Shown one piece after another: positions 59,837 through 62,286 of a stretch of 64,000 bases of DNA. The position numbers were made by a program, and so were the translations under genes. Under the pieces are notes generated by a model. The model was given only the letters and a program-made list of their open reading frames with translations. It made no database searches and was not told the origin of the DNA. The stretch comes from Candidatus Terraquivivens yellowstonensis (GTDB lineage: Archaea > Thermoproteota > Nitrososphaeria_A > Caldarchaeales > Wolframiiraptoraceae): positions 6,123 through 70,122 of the forward strand of contig JAKCEW010000005.1 of the NCBI GenBank assembly GCA_023539445.1, read 5' to 3'. Position 1 is the first letter of the stretch. Each line of letters starts with the position of its first letter.

Positions 59837-59923
59837 AACCCACTTTCACTTTCGGCAAACCCTCCCGAGGCTGCGCACAAATAACCTTTTAACGAAAAGC
59901 CCCGCTCTGAAACTTGACTGATT

Positions 59924-60589
59924 TTGGTACCGAGGGATGTGCTCGAAAGGGACATAATCAAACACATGTCAAGGCAAGGCCTGAAGTTCGAGGGGAATGG
60001 CGAGGATGGCGTACTGAGGTTTGTCGGGAACGGCTCCACATACATCGTCAAGGTTCTGGATGAGACGGACGGAAGGCTGGAGCTGATTTCCGCCGCGTTG
60101 CAGTCAGCATTTTGGGCGGCCAAGGGCGAGAAGGCATACATCTTAGCCCCCAAGAGCATGGCCTCCACGGACGAGCTCATGGTTATCAGGCTGCACGGCA
60201 TAGGCCTTCTACTTTATGGGCCTCATGGGATAGAGGAGTTGCCACCCATCATAAAACATGTAAGGCACGATGAGAGAAAAGATGATGATAAAACTCCCAT
60301 AGAACTGGAAAGCATGCAGCGGGTGCTAGAAAAGGTAGAAAGGCTTGAGAGGTTCATCCACAGGATAAATGACGTGGACGCTCTGGCGTCGAGGCTTGAG
60401 AGGCTCGAGGCAATGTACCGCGAGCTCTCCAACAAGTTGTTGGTTTTTGAAGGTATGAGAGGCTCGCATGCCGGGATAGCAGTACCGGAAATGCCCAGCA
60501 GTAAAAGCAACGACATAAGCCCCGGAATCGAGCTACCGTCGTTCATGAAGGACAACCCATGGCTCAACATACTCTCGGGCAAAGGTTAG
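59924..60589 (+). CDS. Arcadin-2-like partner of crenactin (predicted)
   Basis: 221 aa, TTG start, CTTTTAAC TATA box about 35 nt upstream. Residues 1-115 form a small globular domain; 128-178 a coiled coil (LESMQRVLEKVERLERFIHR, LASRLERLEAMYREL); then a Ser/Pro-rich linker and a short hydrophobic C-terminus (SFMKDNPWLNILSGKG). This layout, length and position just before the actin gene match arcadin-2, whose C-terminal helix binds crenactin filaments. Identity is inferred from layout, not from a clear sequence signature. Confidence 0.6.
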   Translation: MVPRDVLERDIIKHMSRQGLKFEGNGEDGVLRFVGNGSTYIVKVLDETDGRLELISAALQSAFWAAKGEKAYILAPKSMASTDELMVIRLHGIGLLLYGPHGIEELPPIIKHVRHDERKDDDKTPIELESMQRVLEKVERLERFIHRINDVDALASRLERLEAMYRELSNKLLVFEGMRGSHAGIAVPEMPSSKSNDISPGIELPSFMKDNPWLNILSGKG

Positions 60590-60611
60590 TTTAACGCTTA
60601 AATCGCAAGCT

Positions 60612-61895
60612 ATGAACCTGTTGATAGGGATGTACGACGAAGATTATAAGAAGCGTTACGTGTTCGGAGCGGATTATGGAACCAGCGAGTTCAAGTACGG
60701 GCCGATAACCCAAGGCGAGAGACCCCTTACCGTGGAGAGCAGGGGCTACTTTCCTGAAAGGTCCGTCATATCCCAGATAATGGGGGTTGACCGCGAAGTA
60801 GTGGTCGGCAAAGACGTGACGCTCTTCTTGGAAAGCGGTGCAGAGCTTGCCACCAGACTGGTTTACCCAATGAGAGAAGGGATCATCATGAAGGATGATG
60901 CGAGGGCATGGAAGGTTGTGAGGGAGCTGACGCGCTATGCTTTGGAGGAGTTTAAACCAAAGGGCTGGGGCTTCAACGGCTTCTACGTCGTGGCAGCCCT
61001 CTCGGCGGTCGCGCCTAGGTACATGTATGAGAAGTTTTTTGAGATTTTTGAGAGCATGGCTAAAGAGGCAGGCCTCGTGCGCTCAGCGACGATAATCCCG
61101 CAGCCCTTGGCCGTTGCCATAGCCCACAAGAAGACTTCCTGCGTCGTTGTGGAGAGCGGGCACGGGAATACACAGTTCGCGCCCATCTCAAGAGCACCAA
61201 TCAGGGGCGCCGTCATAGCTTTGAATAGGGGAGGGAGCGACGCTAACGCAATCATGGCAGAAATTCTCAAAGATGCCGGCTATGGCGACTTGGCTGCCGA
61301 GGAAACCCTTGTGAGAAAGGTTAAGGAAAACTTGGGCTTGTTACCCGCTGATTTGGACTCCGCAATATCCTTCGCCAAGAACAACCCGGAGGCGGTCAGG
61401 GCAGTTTATGCGGTTCCCGGAACGAGGCTCAAGATAGACCTTGCCGAGAACTCTTGGGCAAGATTCTTGGTCGGCGAGTATGTCTTCAACCCGAACCATG
61501 AAATATTCCAGAGCTACTTCAAGAGGGGGATGCCAAGACCGAGGGATACAAAGGTTGGTGACGTCGTATTTTACGGGATGCTGGACATGGCCGAAGCCAT
61601 AACGACTGCCGTGGAGAAATGTCCTGTCGAGCTCCAGCCACTCCTCTACAGCCAGATACTCCTATCTGGTGGGAACTTCTCTTGGAATGTTCCAGAGAGG
61701 CTAAAGGGCATCTGTGTGGATTCCGCGACGAAGATTAAGCGCATGATGAGCGGGAAGGGCATAGAAAATGTGAACGTGATCATGGCTTCGGAACCACAGT
61801 ATTCAGTTTGGCGCGGTTGCATAGTTTACGGATACGCTGTTCCTGCAAGTTACAGTTGGTCTTGGGAGAAGATGGAGGGCTGGATGAACTTTTAA
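60612..61895 (+). CDS. Crenactin-type archaeal actin homologue
   Basis: 427 aa. Actin-fold motifs in order: phosphate 1 FGADYGTSEFKYGP (about residues 19-31), phosphate 2 VVVESGHGNTQFAPI (about 170-185; actin has IDSGDGVT), the adenosine loop LLSGGNFSWNVPERL (about 350-364) and ASEPQYSVWRGCIVYGYA (about 392-408; actin has ERKYSVWIGGSIL). Expected to form ATP-dependent double-helical filaments in cell-shape or division roles. ATG 60630 is an alternative start, better placed for a CTTAAAT box at 60597-60603. Follows the arcadin-2-like gene by 22 nt. Confidence 0.85.
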   Translation: MNLLIGMYDEDYKKRYVFGADYGTSEFKYGPITQGERPLTVESRGYFPERSVISQIMGVDREVVVGKDVTLFLESGAELATRLVYPMREGIIMKDDARAWKVVRELTRYALEEFKPKGWGFNGFYVVAALSAVAPRYMYEKFFEIFESMAKEAGLVRSATIIPQPLAVAIAHKKTSCVVVESGHGNTQFAPISRAPIRGAVIALNRGGSDANAIMAEILKDAGYGDLAAEETLVRKVKENLGLLPADLDSAISFAKNNPEAVRAVYAVPGTRLKIDLAENSWARFLVGEYVFNPNHEIFQSYFKRGMPRPRDTKVGDVVFYGMLDMAEAITTAVEKCPVELQPLLYSQILLSGGNFSWNVPERLKGICVDSATKIKRMMSGKGIENVNVIMASEPQYSVWRGCIVYGYAVPASYSWSWEKMEGWMNF

Positions 61896-61953: not shown

Positions 61954-62286
61954 GTGGTTAGTTTGAGTAAAAAATATTTTAGGAGAGACGAGATCGTAGG
62001 CAAAGAGATAATCTCGGATGCGGCATTAAGACTGGGAAAGGTCAAAGACATCGGCTACGACTCTGAGGGGAAAATAGTCCTAATATATGACAAACCGGAT
62101 GGAGAGGAAGATGCTATACACTCATCACAGATAATGGCACTCGGAGATGTCGTGCTCATAAAGTCAGCGCCAGAGCCAACACCTCAGAAAAGCGCGACAT
62201 TGTTAAAGCACTGCCCAAACTGCGGAAAGGCAAACCCGCCGGAAATGCTTTTCTGCACATCCTGCGGAGCGAGGCTGGAGGCGTGA
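61954..62286 (+). CDS. PRC-barrel protein with C-terminal zinc ribbon
   Basis: 110 aa, GTG start, TATA box TTTTATAAG (61917-61925) about 33 nt upstream. Residues 10-75 fit a PRC barrel (VGKEIISDAALRLGKVKDIGYD, SSQIMALGDVVLIKS); residues 86-108 are a zinc ribbon (CPNCGKANPPEMLFCTSCG). PRC barrels occur in CdvA of archaeal division and in RNA-maturation proteins. Placed behind crenactin and 7 nt before a membrane protein with a similar ribbon, so an envelope or cytoskeletal adaptor is possible. Confidence 0.72.
   Translation: MVSLSKKYFRRDEIVGKEIISDAALRLGKVKDIGYDSEGKIVLIYDKPDGEEDAIHSSQIMALGDVVLIKSAPEPTPQKSATLLKHCPNCGKANPPEMLFCTSCGARLEA

Follow-up and report, generated by a model that had tools for sequence, protein, structure and literature searches.

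A chromosomal crenactin and arcadin-2 gene pair in the hot-spring archaeon Candidatus Terraquivivens yellowstonensis

The window analysed here, a stretch of 64,000 nucleotides, comes from the hot-spring archaeon Candidatus Terraquivivens yellowstonensis, which belongs to Caldarchaeales (formerly Aigarchaeota) and has a genome of 1.16 Mb in 35 contigs that is 95.8% complete. On the forward strand of the window, a gene for arcadin-2 (59924..60589, 221 aa, TTG start) is followed by a gene for crenactin (60630..61895, 421 aa). Both open reading frames lie where a preliminary description of the window had placed them, with one correction: crenactin likely starts at the ATG at 60630, which is invariant across the genus, rather than at 60612, where the longest reading frame begins. 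The TTG start of arcadin-2 is conserved in the genus as well, and an in-frame TGA stands just 5' of it in the window and at locus L092. Each of the two genes probably has its own promoter, as judged from two conserved AT-rich boxes on the forward strand. The first, AAATAACCTTTTAACG (59879..59894), is nearly invariant in six members of the genus within a variable spacer and is a probable TATA-type element for arcadin-2; the second, TTAACGCTTAAAT (60591..60603), is nearly invariant in six members of the genus and is a probable separate element for crenactin. In the genus members compared, the pair always comes after pyrD and faces pyrB-pyrI-pyrC on the opposite side. A gene for a protein with a PRC-barrel and a zinc ribbon (61954-62286) begins 58 bases 3' of crenactin, and PRC-barrel proteins have a role in archaeal division in other systems (PMC10936438). 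The adjacency of this gene and of a DUF4013 gene to crenactin is not kept in other members of the genus, and both are therefore excluded from the crenactin system.

The actin homologue matches the crenactin model NF053560 over its whole length (positions 1-422 of 422) with 564 bits, against 44 bits for MamK and 17.5 bits for MreBH, which confirms the crenactin identity given in the preliminary description and excludes a grouping with MreB. It is 46-47% identical to the crenactin of Pyrobaculum calidifontis (4cj7, phmmer E 1e-111), with homology to the crystallized protein (4CJ7, 5LY3, 5LY4) along the full length, and the predicted fold of a close relative's crenactin superposes on 4CJ7 with Z 48.1 and an rmsd of 1.8 over 416 residues. 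Three nucleotide-binding motifs, phosphate-1 (VFGADYGTS), phosphate-2 (VVVESGHGNTQ) and adenosine (LLSGGNFSW), are kept, and so is the catalytic Gln. The nucleotide-site Gln and the polymerization residues are common to both proteins, Q164 of P. calidifontis corresponding to Q158 here and V339/E340 to V333/E334, whereas the D-loop/hydrophobic-plug region is shorter here, as seen from alignment gaps. The score of 564 bits lies below the NCBIfam equivalog cut-off of 630 bits, an annotation threshold that is reached in none of the 41 genomes of the order. In a sample of the phylum, only a Thermoproteales-type group exceeds it and other non-Thermoproteales crenactins also fall below, so that this cut-off seems to delimit a subgroup. 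Given that the whole order misses the cut-off and that the fold matches 4cj7 with a Z of 48, the gene is filed as crenactin in the broad sense, following the usage of the literature for this lineage (PMC9723716). The protein is 90-93% identical to its homologues in Candidatus Terraquivivens tengchongensis, tikiterensis and ruidianensis, which is also the range within the genus, compared with 60-71% for arcadin-2. One genome of the same family (G020) encodes two full-length crenactins (C27:6943-8181 and C32:7360-8604), for which paralogues or mixed binning are possible explanations.

The 221-aa protein has no Pfam or NCBIfam match by itself, and a search of the order's loci with the single sequence of P. 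calidifontis arcadin-2 gave no matches, so that profiles are required to find arcadin-2. A profile built solely from the order retrieved Thermoproteales arcadin-2 genes with E-values of 1.8e-26, 2.4e-26, 5.8e-8 (L059) and 0.0034 (L061, which is the P. calidifontis locus, its crenactin being 100% identical). The reverse search, with a profile of five Pyrobaculum-type arcadin-2s against the proteins of the order, had a best E-value of 4.7e-9, and profile-profile alignment with hhalign gave a probability of 95.6% over residues 10-112, with the coiled coil outside the match. These matches in both directions bear out the arcadin-2 identity that the preliminary description had proposed from size and layout. 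The P. calidifontis protein (WP_011850311; 203 aa) is laid out alike, from the N-domain through the helical region and the linker to the groove helix at the C-terminus, and is encoded next to crenactin as well, on the 3' side, whereas arcadin-2 lies 5' of crenactin in Terraquivivens. The P. calidifontis cluster runs arcadin-1, crenactin, arcadin-2, a 56-aa open reading frame and a 795-aa Rad50-like protein; the 56-aa frame, between arcadin-2 and arcadin-4, is a candidate for arcadin-3. According to PMC9723716, crenactin, arcadin-1 and arcadin-2 have already been reported from Caldarchaeales (Aigarchaeota). That set, from the same lineage and with the same genes, shows essentially no difference from the one described here, in which arcadin-1 is unlinked from the pair; on this account, the pair is not new in kind.

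AlphaFold2 predicts for arcadin-2 an alpha/beta domain (residues 4-106), a helix of 52 residues (127-178), a disordered linker (179-201) and a C-terminal helix (206-217), an architecture that matches the coiled coil, flexible linker and C-terminal peptide first noted in the sequence. All of these parts are encoded on the forward strand. The N-terminal domain (59933..60241) is modelled with a pLDDT of about 81-91, and its predicted fold is of the PD-(D/E)XK, or restriction-endonuclease-like, type but without catalytic residues. Its closest structures by VIA Z-score are XisH 2okf (10.7), PaqCI (10.0), AF1548 (9.5), AF2093 (9.2) and EndoMS (9.0), the best Foldseek match is a splicing endonuclease (E 1.7e-4), and the list of structure matches also includes users of the fold for protein contacts, such as RPB5-type polymerase subunits. 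In an alignment with the predicted strands, the D and (D/E)xK residues on which catalysis by active nucleases depends are absent from the expected strands. A sequence profile of the domain found no nuclease in the PDB (best match ferritin, E 0.35), and a profile of the full-length protein found mainly coiled coils; support for the nuclease-like fold thus comes from structure prediction alone. The net charge of the domain is acidic in every sampled member (-1 to -7), which does not favour binding to DNA, and a dead nuclease fold serving as a binding scaffold is plausible. Among the papers searched, none mentions both arcadin-2 and a restriction endonuclease. The helix at 60302..60457, which gives profile matches to coiled coils, is followed by the linker at 60458..60526 (pLDDT below 50).

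The best-conserved portion of arcadin-2 is its C-terminal tail, LPS[FY]..[DN]NPW[VIL].[IVL]L. The motif LPSFMKDNPWLNILSGKG (60533..60586, forward strand) is kept in about 55 arcadin-2s, among which the form LPSF.KDNPW..IL is nearly invariant, with five more distant tails left out of the alignment after being misaligned at first; the window has DNPWLNIL, with the conserved Trp and hydrophobic residues. The motif is the counterpart of the groove-binding peptide of 5LY3, in which the NEWVKIL tail of P. calidifontis was crystallized in the crenactin groove (PMC5173319). The tail of T. tengchongensis arcadin-2 was also predicted fused to its own crenactin, as one chain joined through the intergenic sequence, which is naturally in frame and in which two stop codons were treated as residues. 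The segment LPSFMKDNPW then has a mean pLDDT of 85, compared with 58-64 in arcadin-2 alone, and the linker stays below 50. This indirectly supports an ordered contact between the tail and crenactin in the model; a rise in pLDDT does not locate the contact site. A search of the genus for other proteins with the motif found none besides a conserved 274-aa protein with NNPWLPVL, which has the look of a TIM-barrel enzyme and whose resemblance was judged coincidental.

Arcadin-2 follows crenactin across the order. Crenactin is present in 37 of the 41 genomes and arcadin-2 in 35 of these 37, and none of the four crenactin-less genomes (G019, G031, G036 and G039, two of them quite incomplete) has arcadin-2, a co-occurrence with p = 1.5e-4 when the 41 genomes are counted as independent and kinship and linkage are ignored. 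In family f2 the two genes reside on different contigs (C8 and C11 in G022) and still occur together. Arcadin-2 is located 5' of crenactin in this genus and in family f4, and 3' of it in f3 and the other examined genera of the same family.

The homology of the pair, its architecture, the conservation of its tail motif and its co-occurrence are direct results of these comparisons. For the Pyrobaculum pair, filament formation, groove binding by arcadin-2 and depolymerization were shown biochemically (PMC5173319), and by analogy we infer the same biochemistry in this lineage, together with a role for the N-domain. The reading that accounts best for the locus, with a probability of roughly 0.88, is a chromosomal crenactin and arcadin-2 pair in which arcadin-2 sequesters crenactin monomers through its C-terminal helix. 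Crenactin would form actin-like filaments with ATP, and the helix (PSFMKDNPWLNIL) would enter the groove between subdomains 1 and 3. As this groove is the binding place of the D-loop of the next subunit, monomers would be held and filaments would fall apart. The body of arcadin-2, an inactive nuclease-like domain with a coiled coil, may oligomerize the protein, tether it to a cellular partner, or both. Two points weigh against sequestration: the motif reads NPW here instead of the NEW of P. calidifontis, and nucleation or tethering would occupy the same groove.

Instead of sequestering crenactin in bulk, arcadin-2 could mainly be an adaptor whose nuclease-like N-domain connects crenactin with DNA or with some other partner, in the style of ParR and ParM. 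The predicted PD-(D/E)XK-like domain and a coiled coil available for oligomerization would suit such a role; moreover, published work places the Pyrobaculum protein between nucleoids that have segregated and describes a comparable binding of ParR in the groove of ParM (PMC9723716, PMC5173319). In both actin-thymosin beta4 and ParM-ParR, a short segment fits the groove between subdomains 1 and 3 (PMC5173319). The placement of the arcadin-2 helix in the groove would be alike. Arcadin-2 has no known sequence relation to thymosin beta4 or ParR. The DNA-binding domain of ParR is a ribbon-helix-helix, in contrast to the predicted nuclease-like domain of arcadin-2. The adaptor role is nevertheless unlikely, since the N-domain is acidic in all sampled members, which disfavours DNA binding, the catalytic residues are missing from a fold that also serves protein contacts, and Pyrobaculum arcadin-2 depolymerizes filaments in bulk.

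The preliminary description further regarded the pair as a reduced, minimal cluster. Its identification of crenactin and arcadin-2 stands, and arcadin-1, -3 and -4 are indeed absent beside the pair; the reduction does not hold, as contig C14 of this genome encodes a 110-aa homologue of arcadin-1, unlinked to the pair (G000:C14:120690-121013; L126:9191-9523). This gene was found by an arcadin-1 profile made from Thermoproteales only (E 1.5e-6), and the sole PDB match of the Caldarchaeales arcadin-1 family is arcadin-1 itself (5LY5, E 2e-6). Arcadin-1 is present in 32 of the 41 relatives, including all four crenactin-less genomes, and its persistence there means that it probably has work apart from crenactin. 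For arcadin-4 the genome has no clear counterpart, only weak matches to Rad50/SMC-head-like ATPases (E 5e-5 and 1e-4), and FtsZ (341 bits) and two CdvB/Snf7-like proteins are also encoded. With arcadin-1 on a separate contig, the crenactin system is dispersed over the genome and not reduced; a two-gene actin system that has lost the other arcadins, for which the absence of other arcadin genes beside the pair and the lack of a clear arcadin-4 could be adduced, is very improbable. Another alternative, in which the 221-aa product is a coiled-coil protein of unrelated origin that stands next to crenactin by chance, might be suggested by its lack of domain matches and its low identity to Pyrobaculum arcadin-2, and is effectively refuted by significant reciprocal profile matches, by a profile-profile match in the N-domain and not in the coiled coil, and by co-occurrence that holds where the genes are unlinked.

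The same tail is found in a different type of protein. Neighbours of crenactin with several hydrophobic segments and DNPWA.IL were identified at L110 and in the genomes G125 and G190, both from another class; in other members of the class of G190 (L161-L163), an ordinary arcadin-2 lies near crenactin. These crenactin-adjacent membrane proteins carry the motif DNPWA.ILS without the N-domain of arcadin-2: L110:2275-3540 on the forward strand of a Nitrososphaerales contig, and L159:2583-3764 and L160:80-1261, both on the reverse strand with VWA-domain genes alongside. By a rough estimate with assumed residue frequencies, chance alone would place the motif in about 1 in 8000 proteins of 400 residues. 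A tentative reading, possible rather than probable, is that the groove-binding helix is a portable module, borne in most archaea by arcadin-2, in which a coiled coil accompanies a dead nuclease-like domain, and in some lineages by multi-pass membrane proteins encoded beside crenactin. One and the same tail would then couple actin to the membrane in the latter and, in the former, to a soluble partner, perhaps the nucleoid. Such reuse would be comparable to that of WH2 motifs in eukaryotes.

The nuclease-like prediction for the N-domain and the membrane proteins with the crenactin-binding motif seem to be new additions. Arcadin-2 accompanies crenactin even when the two genes are not linked, and arcadin-1 persists without crenactin, which argues that arcadin-2 is the core partner and that arcadin-1 has a separate role. 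Arcadin-2 is the only crenactin regulator shown to dismantle filaments, and it is conserved well beyond Thermoproteales. The predicted fold of its N-domain is the first lead on the nature of the body of this protein, and the membrane proteins with an arcadin-2-type tail suggest a possible way of anchoring archaeal actin.
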